A stretch of DNA of 64,000 bases, taken from NCBI GenBank assembly GCA_027339745.1, contig DAHWNW010000001.1:186001-250000 (forward strand). The letters are read 5' to 3'. Shown one piece after another: positions 7,163-15,754 of this stretch (position 1 is its first letter; every line of letters starts with the position of its first letter). Under the pieces are notes generated by a model that saw only the letters and a program-made list of their open reading frames with translations, did not search any database and was not told where the DNA came from. The position numbers and the translations under genes are program-made. The DNA is from Nitrososphaerota archaeon. Lineage in GTDB: Archaea > Thermoproteota > Nitrososphaeria > Nitrososphaerales > Gagatemarchaeaceae.

Positions 7163-10100
7163 ATGCGGAACGTAGTACTCTTCAAAGACGCGCTCGGGGG
7201 GGACAAATTCCTCCTCGGCGGAAAGGGGTACGGCCTTGTGGAGATGACGTCGCTCGGCCTTCCCGTCCCTCCCGGATTCACCATCACGACGGAGGTCTGC
7301 AAGGCGTACTATGCGAACGGAGGCAAGGTCCCTGAAGGGCTCTTCGAGGAGGTCCGGACCGTGATATCTGAGGTCGAGGGCCAGACAGGGAAGAGGTTCG
7401 GCGGTGGGGAGAAGCCTTTGCTCTTCTCTGTCAGGTCGGGGGCACCGTTCTCCATGCCGGGGATGATGGACACGATCCTCAACCTCGGGCTGAACGACGT
7501 CACCGCCAAGCGGATGGCGGAGATCACGAAGAACGAGAGGTTCGCATACGACTCATACAGGAGGCTCATCCAGATGTTCGGTAAGGTCGCAATGGGCGCC
7601 GAGGGGGAAGCTTTCGAGAGGATCCTCGAGGCTAGGAGGAAGGCGTCTGGGGTCAAGATGGACATCGACCTCTCCTCCAAGGAGCTGAAGGGGGTCGCCG
7701 AGGAGTTCAAGAGAATCATCAAGGAGGAGACGGGCAAGGAGTTCCCTCAAGACCCATACGTCCAGCTCGAGATGGCCATCGTGGCCGTCCTCGGCTCGTG
7801 GAACAACGAGAGGGCGAAGGAGTACAGGAGGTTCTACAGCATCCCAGACGACCTCGGGACAGCGGTGAACGTCCAGGCCATGGTATTCGGGAATTTCGGA
7901 GAGAACTCCGGCTCCGGGGTCGGGTTCACCCGCAACCCATCGACCGGGGAGAAGAAGCTCTTCGGCGAGTACCTCCCCAATTCGCAGGGGGAGGACGTTG
8001 TGGCAGGGATACGGACCCCAGTGAGCATCGAAGGGATGCACCCAGCGCTGAAGGCGCGGCTTCAGGACGTGGCGAACCGGCTTGAAGCGCACTTCAAAGA
8101 CATGCAGGACTTCGAGTTCACGATCGAGGACGGGAAGCTCTACACGCTCCAGACGAGGAACGGAAAGAGGACCGCCCAGGCCGCTGTGAAAATCGCGGTG
8201 GACATGGCGAAGGAGGGGCTCATCACCGAAGAGGAGTCAGTGGCGAGAATCGAGCCGGACCAACTGGAGGCGCTCCTGCACAGGAGGCTAGACCCTGGCT
8301 CGAGGGACAGGCCGGTGGCGAGGGGGTTGGACGCGTCCCCCGGCGCGGCGTCAGGGAAGGTCGTGTTCGACACGGAGGAAGCTGCGTCCATCGGCGGTTC
8401 GCAGAAGATCATCCTCGTACGCCCAGAGACCACCCCTGAAGACATCAAGGGGCTGATCGCTTCCCAGGGGGTGCTCACGATGCGCGGGGGTATGACGTGC
8501 GTCGGCGGCGAGACGCTTTTGCTGACTGAGAATGGACTCACCACGGCTCGGGATCTATACCATGCGATAGAAGAGGGGCTTACGCCTTCAACCCTTTGCT
8601 TCGACCACGCTTCGGGCAAGTCTGTTTGGAGGAAGATTATCGCCACTGGGACAAGGCTCTCGCCAGCCATAGAGGTGGCTGTCTCTCAGACAGGAAGATC
8701 GACGATTAGCACAGTGAGAATCACCCCTGACCACAAGATGTTCACCATAACGAAGAGGAGGCTCTTGAAGAAGCCCCTTGAGGACCTCTTGGCAGAAGAG
8801 GGGTTCGCATGCGTGGTCGACAAAATCCCTGGTAAAGGGTCGAACAGCGTTCCTCAATTGGCCTACCTCGTGGGGGCGCTCTTCACCGATGGCCACGTGA
8901 GCCTCAAACGAACGAAAGGAAGCGTAACATTCACGCACGCCCTCGCGCCGGAGAAAGGAGAATTCATCGAAACCGTAAGCACCTTCTTCGAAGATGTGTT
9001 CGGGAGACGTTTCAACATCGAAAGAGTCGAGATGTCTGACGGGACAATTCGAGGCAGAACAATCTCAGGCGGCGCGCTCGATCTGATCAGCACGACGCGG
9101 GAACCTGCGGCTACGCTCTCGTCCATTTGGGACACGCTGGACTCTTGGGTGCTAAGTCTCGATGAGACATCGCTGCTGTATTTCATAGCCGGGGCCGCTG
9201 ACGGCGACGGAACTTACACCCCGAGCAGGATTCAGATCTTTAGCTCCGACAAAGGATTCGTGGCGGCACTAGAACTGGCGTGCCTCAGGCTTAGCATACT
9301 CCCCCAGGTATCCACTAACAGGACGATTTACAACGTGCAAATCGTCGAGAGGGTGCAAGACATCTTGTGTTACACTCACAGATTGAGAGGCGAGGTCCGG
9401 CCGCGTCACTATGGAACTAAGCTTTTCTCCGCGAAGAGTCTGGCTGGTGACGTCACCAATATCAAAGGAAACAGGAGAATCCTAGACTCTGTCGAGAGGA
9501 ACTTGCTCGTAGATGGGAGGAAGCTCCTCAGATATCTTGCGGCGTCGTCGCCTCCCGAAGTTGGCGCGGAAGTCGAACAGATACTTTCGTTCGATTTGAG
9601 AATGACCAGGGTGAGGAGTCTCGGTGCGGTAGGCGAGATAGAAGTGTACAACTTCGAGGTTGATGCGAAGGATGAACTGGACAAGAATTTTGTCGTGTTT
9701 ACGAAGTCCTTCGTGCCTGTCCTCGTATCCAACTCCCACGCGGCGGTGGTGGCAAGAGGGATGGGGAAGCCCGCTGTGGTCGGTTGCAGCGAAATCGAGA
9801 TTTCCATGGAAGGAGGCTTCTTCACGACCAAGTCCGGGGAGAGGATATCGAAGGGGGAAGCGATCACAATCGATGGGACGACAGGGTCGGTGTACAAGGG
9901 AGAGGTAAAGATGGTGGACCCTGAGCCGACCCCGGAGCTGACCTCCCTTCTGCAGGTTGCCGACAGGATCAAGCGTCTTGGTGTCTGGGCGAACGCCGAC
10001 ACCCCCGAGGCGGCTGCAAGGGCGAGGGAGTTCGGGGCAGAAGGGATAGGGCTGTGCAGGACGGAGAGGATGTTCAACGACCCGAAGCGCCTCCCCATTG

Positions 10101-11047
10101 TGAGGGACATGATAATGAGCGCGGACGTGGATGCACGGAAGAAGCACCTCTACCGACTCTTTCCGTTCCAGCTCTCGGACTTCAAGGGTATCTTCGCGGC
10201 CATGGGCGGCAGGCCGGTGGTGGTTAGGCTCCTCGACCTGCCTCTCCATGAGTTCCTCCCATCGGTGGAGGAGCTGCTCCTTGAGATGCAGGGGATGAAG
10301 GACAGAGGCGCCCCCGAAGAAGAGCTCGAGAGGGCGGAGACGATGCTCAACCGCGTGAGGCAGCTCTCGGAGCACAACCCAATGATCGGGCACCGGGGTT
10401 GCCGCCTCGCCATAACCCACCCTGAGATATACGAGATGCAGACGAAAGCCATCCTACAGGCAGCCGTCGAGCTCGACCGCGAGAAGAAGGCGCGCGGGAA
10501 GGTGAAGATAATGATCCCCCTGATCTCCACAGTCGAGGAGTTCACGACCCTGAGGAAGGTCGTCGAATCGGCCGCGGACGCCGCTTTCGATGAGTTGGGG
10601 GCGAAGATCGAATATCAGGTGGGGACGATGATAGAGACACCCCGGGCGGCGCTGACATCCGGCGAGATAGCGAAACACTCCGACTTCTTTTCGTTCGGCA
10701 CCAACGACCTGACGCAGACGACCTTCGGCTTCAGCAGGGACGACGTGGAGGCGAAGTTCATCCCCAAGTACCTTGAGGAAGGCATATTCCAGCGGAGCCC
10801 CTTCGACTCAGTGGATGTGGCGGGGGTCGGGCGGCTGGTCAAGCTGGCGGTCCAAGAGGGGAGGACATCAAACCCAGGGCTAGAGGTAGGCATATGCGGG
10901 GAGCATGGGGGGGACCCGAAGAGTATCGCTTTCTTCGCCGAGGCGGGGCTGGATTACGTCAGCTGCTCGGCTTTCAGGGTGCCTGTGGCAAGGCTGGCAG
11001 CCGCCCACGCCGCCCTCTCAGAGAAGTCGAAGGCAGTCACCGCGTAG
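7163..11047 (+). CDS. ppdK: Pyruvate, phosphate dikinase precursor interrupted by an intein
   Basis: The 1294-residue precursor encodes an 882-residue dikinase, the usual family length, after removal of a 412-residue intein. Extein order: ATP-grasp domain (mature residues about 1-340), phosphohistidine domain with GGMT/SHAAVVARG (His447 of the mature protein) and a C-terminal PEP/pyruvate TIM barrel with FGTNDLTQTTFG and VGICGEHGGDP. PPDK interconverts pyruvate + ATP + Pi with PEP + AMP + PPi, linking PEP to the pyruvate ferredoxin oxidoreductase encoded nearby. ATG 7163 has a strong GGAGGAGAGG just upstream and starts at the canonical N-terminus; the longer frame upstream is not used. A TATA-like CTTACAAAC lies near 7117-7125. 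Confidence 0.95.
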   Translation: MRNVVLFKDALGGDKFLLGGKGYGLVEMTSLGLPVPPGFTITTEVCKAYYANGGKVPEGLFEEVRTVISEVEGQTGKRFGGGEKPLLFSVRSGAPFSMPGMMDTILNLGLNDVTAKRMAEITKNERFAYDSYRRLIQMFGKVAMGAEGEAFERILEARRKASGVKMDIDLSSKELKGVAEEFKRIIKEETGKEFPQDPYVQLEMAIVAVLGSWNNERAKEYRRFYSIPDDLGTAVNVQAMVFGNFGENSGSGVGFTRNPSTGEKKLFGEYLPNSQGEDVVAGIRTPVSIEGMHPALKARLQDVANRLEAHFKDMQDFEFTIEDGKLYTLQTRNGKRTAQAAVKIAVDMAKEGLITEEESVARIEPDQLEALLHRRLDPGSRDRPVARGLDASPGAASGKVVFDTEEAASIGGSQKIILVRPETTPEDIKGLIASQGVLTMRGGMTCVGGETLLLTENGLTTARDLYHAIEEGLTPSTLCFDHASGKSVWRKIIATGTRLSPAIEVAVSQTGRSTISTVRITPDHKMFTITKRRLLKKPLEDLLAEEGFACVVDKIPGKGSNSVPQLAYLVGALFTDGHVSLKRTKGSVTFTHALAPEKGEFIETVSTFFEDVFGRRFNIERVEMSDGTIRGRTISGGALDLISTTREPAATLSSIWDTLDSWVLSLDETSLLYFIAGAADGDGTYTPSRIQIFSSDKGFVAALELACLRLSILPQVSTNRTIYNVQIVERVQDILCYTHRLRGEVRPRHYGTKLFSAKSLAGDVTNIKGNRRILDSVERNLLVDGRKLLRYLAASSPPEVGAEVEQILSFDLRMTRVRSLGAVGEIEVYNFEVDAKDELDKNFVVFTKSFVPVLVSNSHAAVVARGMGKPAVVGCSEIEISMEGGFFTTKSGERISKGEAITIDGTTGSVYKGEVKMVDPEPTPELTSLLQVADRIKRLGVWANADTPEAAARAREFGAEGIGLCRTERMFNDPKRLPIVRDMIMSADVDARKKHLYRLFPFQLSDFKGIFAAMGGRPVVVRLLDLPLHEFLPSVEELLLEMQGMKDRGAPEEELERAETMLNRVRQLSEHNPMIGHRGCRLAITHPEIYEMQTKAILQAAVELDREKKARGKVKIMIPLISTVEEFTTLRKVVESAADAAFDELGAKIEYQVGTMIETPRAALTSGEIAKHSDFFSFGTNDLTQTTFGFSRDDVEAKFIPKYLEEGIFQRSPFDSVDVAGVGRLVKLAVQEGRTSNPGLEVGICGEHGGDPKSIAFFAEAGLDYVSCSAFRVPVARLAAAHAALSEKSKAVTA
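8498..9733 (+). mobile_element. Intein with LAGLIDADG homing endonuclease inside ppdK
   Basis: The insertion starts at Cys446 (CVGGETLLLTENG, block A), has block B TVRITPDHKMF, two dodecapeptide motifs LVGALFTDG and FIAGAADGDG, block F (VYNFEVDAKDELDKNFVV) and ends LVSN before Ser of the extein. It lies exactly between Thr and Ser of the phosphohistidine motif GGMT/SHAA, so the host enzyme should be inactive until splicing. Both endonuclease motifs keep the acidic residue, so the homing endonuclease may be active. The penultimate residue is Ser rather than the usual His, an atypical but known kind of deviation. Confidence 0.93.
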
Positions 11048-12502: not shown

Positions 12503-13390
12503 ATGATACTAAGGGTGAGGTTCCACGGACGAGGGGGGCAGGGCGCCAAGACAGCCAGCAGGATTCTCGGGAACGCGGCGTTCAACGACGGCTACAACGC
12601 GCAGGACTTCCCCATCTACGGCGCCGAAAGGAGGGGCGCGCCGGTCACGGCGTTCACCAGGTTCTCAGAGTCAGAGATCACCGAGCGGGGCTTCATCTTC
12701 TCTCCAGACGTGGTGGCAGTGATGGACGACTCGCTTACGGCCGACCCCACGGCCAGCCCCTTCGCCGGACTGAGGAAGGGCGGGCTCGCCATAGTCAACA
12801 CCGCCAAGCCTGCCGCTGAAGTGAACGGAGGGAGGACCGACATCGCTGTATTGACGCTCGACCTTACGAGGCGGGCCCTCGACACACTGGGGAAGGCGGT
12901 ACTCAGCTCAGGGATCGCCGCCGCGGTGGCCAGGGCATCTGGGATCACCTCCGAGGCGTTCATGAGAGGTCTCGTCGAAGAACTCAAGGAGGTGGGACTG
13001 TCGGACGACGCCATCTCGAAGAACGTCGCGCTGGCGACGGCCATCTACGACGTGGTGAGTCCCATCAAGCTGCACACCGAAGAGCTCCCGGCCAGAGCCG
13101 ACCTGGTCCCACTCGCGGTCGTGGTGTCGGGAGAGGGGACCGAGGACGTCGTCAATACTGGTAACTCCGCCTCGAGGCACACCGGAAACTGGAGGATCAC
13201 CAAGCCGGTCATAGACTATCTGAAGTGTACAGACTGCATGATCTGCTACGCATATTGCCCTGAGTCGGCGATGTCTGCGGGGCCCGACGGTAGAATCGCC
13301 ATCGACTATGATAACTGCAAGGGGTGCATGATATGCCAGACGGAGTGCCCCCTGCGGGCCATCGGATCGCAGATGGAGGGGCTGCAATGA
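12503..13390 (+). CDS. porGD: Pyruvate:ferredoxin oxidoreductase, fused gamma and delta subunits
   Basis: This 295-residue protein begins with the gamma domain (FHGRGGQGAKTASRIL, about residues 1-185) and ends with a two-[4Fe-4S] ferredoxin-type delta domain at about 225-290 (CTDCMICYAYCP and CKGCMICQTECP). In many archaea gamma and delta are separate; here they are fused. Together with the following alpha and beta genes it forms the enzyme that oxidatively decarboxylates pyruvate to acetyl-CoA with ferredoxin as acceptor. An ATTTAATT box lies near 12460. The stop overlaps the next start as ATGA. Confidence 0.93.
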   Translation: MILRVRFHGRGGQGAKTASRILGNAAFNDGYNAQDFPIYGAERRGAPVTAFTRFSESEITERGFIFSPDVVAVMDDSLTADPTASPFAGLRKGGLAIVNTAKPAAEVNGGRTDIAVLTLDLTRRALDTLGKAVLSSGIAAAVARASGITSEAFMRGLVEELKEVGLSDDAISKNVALATAIYDVVSPIKLHTEELPARADLVPLAVVVSGEGTEDVVNTGNSASRHTGNWRITKPVIDYLKCTDCMICYAYCPESAMSAGPDGRIAIDYDNCKGCMICQTECPLRAIGSQMEGLQ

Positions 13391-14610
13391 GGCCTGAGCT
13401 GATGACAGGGAATCGCGCGGCCGCGGCTGCCGCGAAGCTGGCCAGGGTCGACTACGTACCGGCGTACCCGATCACGCCGCAGACAGAGATAATCGAGACG
13501 ATCGCAGACTGGGCAAGGGAAGGGACCATGGACGCGAAGTTCGTCCAGCTGGAGTCCGAGCACTCGATGATGACCGCCGCGGGGGCGGCGGCGCTGACCG
13601 GGGCGAGGGTCTTTACCGCGACGTCGAGCCAGGGGCTCCTTTACGCCATGGAGATGCTCTACAACATCTCAGGGTGGAGGGCGCCGATGGTCCTGATGAA
13701 CGTTTCAAGGGCGCTGGCGGCGCCCATAGTCCTCGAGCCCGACCACAACGACGTCCTTTCCGCGAGGGACAGCGGCTTCCTGCAGCTCCACTCAGAGACG
13801 TGTCAGGAAGTGGCGGACCTCGTACTCCTCGCCTACAGGGTGGCCGAAGACAAGAGGGTGATGCTCCCCGCGATAGTGAACCTGGACGGATTCTATCTCT
13901 CTTTCACCCGCGAGAAGGTCAGCCTCCCTGAGCAGGCGGAGGTCGACAGGTTCCTACCCCCCTACGACCCGCCGCATCCGATCAGGGCGACCAGGCCCGT
14001 GTCGAAGGGCTCGGCCGTGATGGAGGGGTACCTGTACAGCTACTTCAGATACAACATGCACGCAGCGGCGCTCCGCGCGAAGGAGGCGTTCAGCGAGGCG
14101 GCACGGGACTTTCAGGACCTGTTCGGAAGAGCGTACGGCCCAGTCGAGGGGTACAGGCTAGACGACGCCGAGTACGTCCTGGTGATGTCCAACTCATTCA
14201 CAACACTGGGGAGGCAGGCGGTGAACCGCGTGAGGGAGCAGGGCGTCAAGGCGGGCCTCCTGAAGTTGCGCATGGTCAGGCCGTTCCCTACCGAGGAGGT
14301 CGCTGCGCTCCTGAAGGGGAGGAAGGTAGATGCCGTCTTCGACCAGAACCTGTCCCCGGGGCTTGGGGGGATACTCTACCCTGAGATCGCCGCCTCGCTC
14401 TATCACGTCCGCGACAGACCGGGGGCGCTCCTCCCGGTGGTCGGCGGGCTCGGCGGGAAACAGCTGACCTCAGACGAGATGTGCCAGGTGTTCGAGAGGA
14501 TGAGGGGGGTCGACGTCGGTGGAGAGAGGCCCGAGCCCATGTTCCTGATGAGAGACGAAGAGCTGACGAAGGCTGAGAGAGCGGTGGCCACGGCGGGGGT
14601 GCATGGGTGA
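13387..14610 (+). CDS. porA: Pyruvate:ferredoxin oxidoreductase, alpha subunit
   Basis: This 407-residue protein has the alpha-subunit signatures AYPITPQTEIIE, ESEHSMMTAAGAAALTG and TSSQGLLYAMEML. The region NVSRALAAPIVLEPDHNDV followed by RDSGFLQL points to the pyruvate-specific group rather than 2-oxoglutarate. ATG 13387 overlaps the porGD stop by 4 nt, which suggests translational coupling. The alpha subunit provides part of the thiamine diphosphate-binding and substrate site at the interface with beta. Confidence 0.93.
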   Translation: MRPELMTGNRAAAAAAKLARVDYVPAYPITPQTEIIETIADWAREGTMDAKFVQLESEHSMMTAAGAAALTGARVFTATSSQGLLYAMEMLYNISGWRAPMVLMNVSRALAAPIVLEPDHNDVLSARDSGFLQLHSETCQEVADLVLLAYRVAEDKRVMLPAIVNLDGFYLSFTREKVSLPEQAEVDRFLPPYDPPHPIRATRPVSKGSAVMEGYLYSYFRYNMHAAALRAKEAFSEAARDFQDLFGRAYGPVEGYRLDDAEYVLVMSNSFTTLGRQAVNRVREQGVKAGLLKLRMVRPFPTEEVAALLKGRKVDAVFDQNLSPGLGGILYPEIAASLYHVRDRPGALLPVVGGLGGKQLTSDEMCQVFERMRGVDVGGERPEPMFLMRDEELTKAERAVATAGVHG

Positions 14611-15575
14611 TGTCGACGGCGACGAAGTTCAAGACGTTGAAGGACATCCCGAAGGAGGAGTACATTGCGCCCGGGAACACGATGTGCGCTGGGTGCGGGG
14701 GAATCCTCGCCGTGAGGATATTCCATAAAGCGCTCGGGCCGAACGTGGCCTGGGTGAACGCGGCAGGGTGCATGACCATTTCCGTGTCATACCCCCTCAG
14801 CCCACTGAAGTCCAACTGGCTCTACACCGCCTTCGCCAGCGCCCCGGCCGGAGCCCAGGGGATCAGGGACGCCTTGGACGTGTTGATGGCGAAGGGCAAG
14901 CTGCAGAAGTCAGAGGACCTGAAGGTGGTCGTCGTCACCGGCGACGGGGCCGCATACGACATCGGCTTCCAGTCGACGGCCGGGGCGATACAGCGGGACC
15001 TTGACTTCTATTACCTCTGCTACGACAATGAGGCATACGGGAACACGGGGTTCCAGATGTCCTCGTCGACCCCCTACGCCTCGTCGTCGAAGACCACCCC
15101 CGTGACCGCGGCGTACCCTTACGGCAACACTGGCAGGAAGAAGGACCTGTTCGAGGCCTGGCGGGCCATGAAGGCGCCCTACGTGGCTACGCTGTCCAAC
15201 TCGCACGGCGTCGACTTCCTCAGGAAGGTGGAGAAGGGAGAAGGAATCAGGGGCCCCAAGCTGTACATCGACTTCGCGGCCTGCCCCACCGGTTGGGGTT
15301 TCGACCCGAAATATTCCATCGAAGTGGAAAAGCTTGCGGTCCAGACCGGGGTCTGGCCGCTCAAGGAGTCCGTGGACGGCGTGGTCAGGCACACTTACGT
15401 CCCCAGGGCGCTGACCCCCGTGAGAGAGTATCTCCGGACCCAGGAGAGGTACGGGCACCTGTTCAAACCAGTCGAGAAGCCTGAGGCCATAGCGACCATC
15501 CAGAGGTCGGTCAACGATTACTGGGCGAAGGTCGCTGCGGAAGAGTCGACCCAGGCGACGCCAGCCCCGGCATAG
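14610..15575 (+). CDS. porB: Pyruvate:ferredoxin oxidoreductase, beta subunit
   Basis: This protein of about 321 residues has the thiamine diphosphate-binding motif GDGAAYDIG followed about 30 residues later by NEAYGNTGFQMS. Four cysteines for the proximal [4Fe-4S] cluster are present (CAGCG near residue 29, AAGC near residue 52 and one near the C-terminus in AACPTGW). ATG 14610 overlaps the alpha stop by one base (TGATG). It ends the three-gene operon; an Ala/Thr/Pro-rich tail follows the conserved domain. Confidence 0.93.
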   Translation: MSTATKFKTLKDIPKEEYIAPGNTMCAGCGGILAVRIFHKALGPNVAWVNAAGCMTISVSYPLSPLKSNWLYTAFASAPAGAQGIRDALDVLMAKGKLQKSEDLKVVVVTGDGAAYDIGFQSTAGAIQRDLDFYYLCYDNEAYGNTGFQMSSSTPYASSSKTTPVTAAYPYGNTGRKKDLFEAWRAMKAPYVATLSNSHGVDFLRKVEKGEGIRGPKLYIDFAACPTGWGFDPKYSIEVEKLAVQTGVWPLKESVDGVVRHTYVPRALTPVREYLRTQERYGHLFKPVEKPEAIATIQRSVNDYWAKVAAEESTQATPAPA

Positions 15576-15656
15576 GCTGCGGGTTGGCGCACGCTCGTCA
15601 GCCCGAGGCTGTCTTCGCCGAAGGCGCACGACTGGGAGAGCCGAACTGAGAGGAAG

Positions 15657-15754
15657 TGGGGTCGGCGAGATTTGAACTCGCGATCGCCAGCGCCCCAGGC
15701 TCACCGTGAAGGTCATTCACTCTGGTATGCTGGACCAAGCTACACTACGACCCC
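15657..15754 (-). tRNA. tRNA-Pro(GGG) with a non-canonical intron
   Basis: On the minus strand the acceptor GGGGTCG pairs with CGACCCC (15658-15664), and the T-arm is GCGAG-TTCAAAT-CTCGC. Removing 22 nt (15700-15721) creates a perfect anticodon stem CCAGC/GCTGG with loop CTGGGGC, that is anticodon GGG for proline, and a mature length of 76 nt. Without removal no acceptable anticodon arm forms. The discriminator is A and CCA is not encoded. A TTTAAA promoter box lies at 15782-15787, about 30 nt upstream. The CCA-adding enzyme gene is in the cluster just upstream. Confidence 0.85.
15700..15721 (-). other. tRNA-Pro intron at about position 29/30-30/31
   Basis: This 22-nt insertion lies within the 5' strand of the anticodon stem. 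AG is repeated at both boundaries, so the splice point is ambiguous by two bases. The intron itself folds as GTGAA/TTCAC around a 5-nt loop. Archaeal splicing endonuclease recognises bulge-helix-bulge structures; I could not unambiguously draw one. Confidence 0.75.

Follow-up and report, generated by a model that had tools for sequence, protein, structure and literature searches.

An archaeal phosphoenolpyruvate (PEP) synthase (PEPS) intein, inserted at GGRT/CH, is known from M. jannaschii. The element described here lies at the corresponding motif of pyruvate phosphate dikinase (PPDK), in a window of 64,000 nucleotides (the whole stretch of DNA that was analysed). Class 1 inteins with a homing endonuclease are an already known kind, to which the window copy adds another member. 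The HINT splicing fold and the LAGLIDADG endonuclease are shared with the PI-PkoII, PI-PfuI, TliVMA and PI-SceI inteins (2cw7, 1dq3, 7qss and 1vde), which occupy other host genes and sites and are 15-19% identical in structural alignments. The penultimate Ser is also found in class 2 inteins such as KlbA of M. jannaschii (PMC4031507). However, these have Ala1, no N-terminal nucleophile and Cys+1, and the presence of Cys1 and Ser+1 in the window intein rules out this class. Class 3 inteins lack Cys1 or Ser1 and use a block-F Cys at position F:4; this class is ruled out by Cys1 and by Asn385 at F:4. The open-access literature that was searched contained no paper mentioning inteins together with a dikinase and nothing relevant on inteins of PEPS or PPDK, which is no proof of absence elsewhere.

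The precursor gene is open from its ATG at 7163 to the stop at 11047, with zero internal stops. The host protein is a PPDK according to the NCBIfam equivalog model TIGR01828 (1226.8 bits, cut-off 843), and the domains PPDK_N, PEP-utilizers and PEP-utilizers_C are found in the precursor. When joined across the insert, the exteins align without gaps to the solved PPDKs 1jde, 1dik and 2x0s (...RGGMTSHAAVVARGMG...). The first-pass annotation had placed an insert at 8498-9733, between GGMT and SHAA and adjoining the catalytic His, and this proved exact to the base: the insert encodes 412 residues, its first codon is TGC (8498; Cys1, after GGMT) and the last is AAC (9733; Asn412, before SHAAVVARGMG). 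The His of SHAA, which is the phosphohistidine of the PPDK mechanism, thus is extein residue +2. Coordinates are collected in Table 1.

Table 1. Position of the PPDK precursor, its intein and neighbouring genes in the window.
Feature	Coordinates	Strand	Evidence or remark
PPDK-intein precursor gene	7163..11047	+	ATG to stop, 1294 aa; TIGR01828 and domain matches
N-extein of PPDK, GGMT at end	7163..8497	+	TIGR01828, alignment to solved PPDKs
Intein, 412 aa, Cys1 to Asn412	8498..9733	+	Motifs, AlphaFold2 model, fold matches
Cys1 (block A), predicted nucleophile of the first splicing step	8498..8500	+	Invariant 19/19
Block B, T-P-D-H (Thr76, His79)	8723..8734	+	Thr and His invariant 19/19
Homing-endonuclease region (approximate), residues 116-365	8843..9592	+	PF14528 LAGLIDADG_3 over 227-285; I-DmoI-like fold, model residues 115-303
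LAGLIDADG motif 1, LVGALFTDG, Asp131	8867..8893	+	Asp131 and Gly132 invariant 19/19
LAGLIDADG motif 2, IAGAADGDG, Asp237	9185..9211	+	D235-G236-D237-G238 invariant 19/19
Block F (VYNFEVDAKDELDKNF)	9644..9691	+	Lys396 in usual His F:13 column; Asn385 at F:4
Block G, PVLVSN	9716..9733	+	Penultimate Ser411, terminal Asn412
C-extein of PPDK	9734..11047	+	Ser+1 = 9734-9736; phosphohistidine at +2 = 9737-9739
2-oxoacid (pyruvate):ferredoxin oxidoreductase genes	12503..14610	+	POR, POR_N, PFOR_II; metabolic context only

Conservation of the motifs was counted in an alignment of 19 relatives, the PEPS/PPDK intein family. The insert has the features of class 1: Cys1 in an open frame, the block B Thr and His, a C-terminal Asn412 that is invariant (19/19), Ser+1 and a HINT fold; the penultimate His that is usual for this class, and not defining, is replaced by Ser411. 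Both LAGLIDADG motifs carry an Asp at the catalytic position (D131 and D237), so that the pair described in the first-pass annotation is indeed intact, and the PF14528 match lies above the cut-off of that model. The Pfam splicing model gave 16.9 bits with the window intein, below its cut-off of 35.8, and was matched by 17 of the 19 family members at E-values up to 0.01. A single-sequence search of the PDB with the intein gave no significant match, but a profile search and a fold search did. The AlphaFold2 model, built with the alignment of the 19 relatives, has a mean pLDDT of 92.1 and a pTM of 0.91 and comprises the whole intein-endonuclease fold. Over its whole length it matches complete inteins with an endonuclease, namely PI-PkoII (2cw7; Z 33.0, 357 residues aligned, 2.9 Å), TliVMA (7qss; Z 30.5) and 1dq3 (Z 23.6). 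The splicing part corresponds to the DnaE, DnaB and RecA inteins at Z 18-20, and model residues 115-303 correspond to I-DmoI at Z 16.3.

The identification as an intein, already made in the first-pass annotation, is thus borne out by the in-frame insert, the Cys1, TPDH, Asn412 and Ser+1 residues, the confident fold and the same-site relatives. Chance origin is excluded by same-site copies from other species that are 88-91% identical, by dN/dS values of about 0.12-0.3 and by the confident fold. With a probability of roughly 93%, we consider the insert to be a mobile class 1 intein with a LAGLIDADG homing endonuclease, located in PPDK directly before the phosphohistidine. The splicing that we infer would most likely be a post-translational excision in the standard four steps: an N-S acyl shift at Cys1, in which Thr76 and His79 assist; transfer to Ser+1; cyclization of Asn412; and an O-N shift, which would restore the GGMT-SHAA sequence and active PPDK. 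The endonuclease would most likely cut intein-free PPDK alleles at the conserved sequence of the phosphohistidine loop, and repair of the cut allele would copy the intein in.

The distribution of the insert within the genus agrees with such mobility. A PPDK gene was recovered from 24 of 31 genomes of the genus; 4 of these genes are occupied and 20 have an uninterrupted site, and the empty sites are clean, with no bases gained or lost. The window genome and one other carrier (G004) hardly differ (99.9-100% nucleotide identity) and were counted as one. The three distinct carriers lie scattered over the extein tree, each near empty sisters, and the occupancy pattern needs 5 changes of state. Two carriers from different species (L003 and L004) have inteins with 95.1% nucleotide identity and flanks with about 78%, the identity changing sharply at both intein junctions. 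The dS value is 0.127 for the intein and 0.99 and 0.93 for the exteins, and the difference at fourfold sites is 0.087 as compared to 0.58 and 0.54. The low dS of the intein relative to the exteins and the abrupt steps at the junctions are explained by a recent transfer of the intein alone between species, as expected of homing. The dN/dS ratio is about 0.12 in the splicing region, 0.18-0.32 in the endonuclease region and about 0.09-0.14 in the exteins, which indicates constraint on both parts of the intein. Right of the insert, L003 and L004 are identical over the first 20 bp. Near the site, 5 of 7 and 5 of 6 differences of the two from their empty sisters match the other carrier, as compared to 54 of 172 and 117 of 275 elsewhere; this is suggestive of co-conversion of the flanks, the differences being too few to claim it. 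With such near-relatives that have or lack the insert, homing becomes traceable. An empty PPDK allele that is 93% identical to the occupied L004 has GGIT in place of GGMT, with AGC as its serine codon (L019, in genome G015), and could be less cleavable by the endonuclease.

The position of the intein has consequences for the metabolism of its hosts. In the intein-bearing genomes that were checked, two of which are at least 90% complete, a PEP synthase model detected no PEP synthase and PPDK was the only dikinase, whereas pyruvate kinase, which covers the opposite direction, is present in 7 of 7 genus members tested. This points to PPDK as the probable route from pyruvate to PEP. The 412 residues would part the phosphohistidine from its loop, and a PEP synthase that might substitute was not detected in these genomes; a need of PPDK activity for the predicted splicing is therefore a sound deduction, and splicing is probably essential for gluconeogenesis as well. 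Insertion at such a codon guards the element against imprecise deletion. Downstream of PPDK and an MFS transporter, a cluster for a pyruvate/2-oxoacid:ferredoxin oxidoreductase occupies 12503-15575 on the plus strand, with a third ORF at 14607-15575.

The same circumstances could be read as domestication, with conditional splicing regulating PPDK activity and thereby gating gluconeogenic flux: the intein sits at the catalytic centre of the sole pyruvate-to-PEP dikinase found, and the two missing helper histidines discussed below could slow splicing. Gating of flux between pyruvate and PEP had also been proposed in the first-pass annotation, and this is where we depart from it. Most PPDK genes of the genus are without the intein, whose patchy occurrence and recent transfer fit a selfish homing element, and every genome checked has a pyruvate kinase. 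Furthermore, the intact endonuclease is under constraint, as would be expected of a mobile element, and no conserved sensor feature was recognised in the intein. We therefore regard domestication as very unlikely, even if it survives best among the alternatives to a mobile intein.

Asn cyclization is usually assisted by His residues at F:13 and G:6; about 5% of functional inteins have another residue at G:6, and restoring His can help or harm (PMC4031507). The Ser in place of the penultimate His, which the first-pass annotation found mechanistically interesting, is real (Ser411), but it is not peculiar to the window copy: the His is absent from 19 of 19 members of the PEPS/PPDK family, which have Asn (8), Ser (7), Glu, Cys, Trp or Gly (1 each) instead. 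Its loss is, as judged from the alignment, a matter of lineage inheritance and no defect of the window copy. The five PPDK inteins in addition have Lys in the block-F His column, where most PEPS inteins retain His. As both usual helper histidines are missing (Ser411 and Lys396), the efficiency of the predicted splicing is uncertain. One could go further and propose that splicing is dead or poor and that the cell tolerates a PPDK allele without function at this locus. Against this, the dN/dS values show constraint on the splicing region and on the exteins, the frame contains no stops, no replacement PEP synthase was found and all nucleophiles are retained in the relatives, so that this explanation is to be given still less credence than domestication.

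It is conceivable, if rather unlikely, that the lineage has passed the C-terminal catalytic step to the host, in that the phosphohistidine at +2 could assist Asn cyclization. Residue +2 is the host phosphohistidine in all members, all of which lack the penultimate His, and in the PPDK branch the block-F His is missing as well. This correlation is confounded because the His at +2 is obligatory for the enzyme. If true, host-assisted cyclization would couple splicing to the active site of the host enzyme and help to account for the confinement of the lineage to this loop in PPDK and PEPS. In any case the family is a natural set of 19 sequences for which splicing in the absence of a penultimate His is predicted, in some cases without the block-F His as well, and the roles of these histidines are thereby testable.

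Similar to the window copy, all other carriers are metagenome-assembled or uncultured genomes. Three further genomes of the genus carry the same insertion (100, 91 and 88% identity), and a PPDK intein at the same site occurs in another genus of the family (Thaumarchaeota MAG JACPTA010000032; 46-47% identity). Scanning 85,000 species genomes further revealed inteins in the PPDK of a Fimbriimonadales bacterium (MAG JAOAES010000308; 41%) and the PEP synthases of a Woesearchaeota and a Nanoarchaeota member (33%, best segment); these three inteins are full length and at the equivalent position (GGMT/SHAA or GGRT/CHAA). The JACPTA010000032 and JAOAES010000308 inteins share gene, site, Ser+1, the Ser-Asn end and the block-F Lys with the window intein, from which they differ in the identities given and, for JAOAES010000308, in the bacterial host. 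The bacterial host is real, as its intein-bearing PPDK shares 91-95% identity with PPDKs that lack an insert in many sister bacterial genomes; the intein has thus crossed the boundary between domains of life.

In a sample of 371 DPANN-phylum genomes 15 carriers were detected, 14 of them with a full-length intein, in all 14 cases in PEP synthase and at the same site; 12 of the full-length DPANN inteins come in addition to the Woesearchaeota and Nanoarchaeota ones. They are 30-39% identical to the window intein, with homology that spans the whole intein including the LAGLIDADG endonuclease, and share with it the site one residue before the phosphohistidine and the lack of a penultimate His. The DPANN inteins differ in residing in the paralogue PEP synthase (GGRT/CHAA), in having Cys at +1 in all but one, in a penultimate residue that is usually Asn and in keeping the block-F His in all but one. 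One PEP synthase (L064) has SHAA instead of CHAA and an intein ending in Ser-Asn, and its sequence is intermediate between the PEPS and PPDK types. Another DPANN PEP synthase (L067, in genome G494) shows an apparent short intein-like insert near the N-terminal domain and, at the phosphohistidine loop, the apparent beginning of another.

The first-pass annotation had left a choice between independent and shared origin of the PPDK and PEP synthase inteins. The five PPDK inteins make up a single clade of the intein tree (support 100/98) within a group (99/96) that also holds three PEPS inteins; because of this common group the two types are one lineage and not two origins. Active-site loops are in general favoured as intein sites, so that independent arrival at the same loop might be imagined, but the whole-intein homology to the DPANN copies and the 99/96 grouping make this a very faint prospect. 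The tree is unrooted and does not give the direction of the jump between PEPS and PPDK; any order of jumps is something we infer. By all signs in the sequences, the lineage has spread from one paralogous enzyme to another, across archaeal species and across the divide that separates Archaea from Bacteria. Two paralogous enzymes of central metabolism, in two domains of life, here provide a clear natural example of a single intein lineage that occupies the homologous active-site codon.

Among 398 genomes sampled evenly across the phylum, the window itself was the only match, and PPDK inteins thus are rare in the phylum. Plasmid and phage collections gave no match at an E-value of 1e-5. A weak match of 27% in IMG/VR (L050), in an unrelated protease-like host protein, was rejected. 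Three matches of 27-28% (L006-L008) were set aside as different inteins, located in apparent MCM helicases of same-family relatives; one of these proteins (L007) has an apparent second intein downstream.

The reading of the insert as an RNA intron or assembly artefact, for which no supporting point was found, can be practically dismissed: the frame is maintained, intein motifs are present, independent assemblies from different MAGs carry the insert, and the window gives no Rfam intron match. The sole Rfam match in the window is a tRNA of 98-99 nt at 15656-15754 on the minus strand. ARAGORN calls it tRNA-Ile with anticodon AAT, an unusual call for an archaeon that points to a misread tRNA with an intron.
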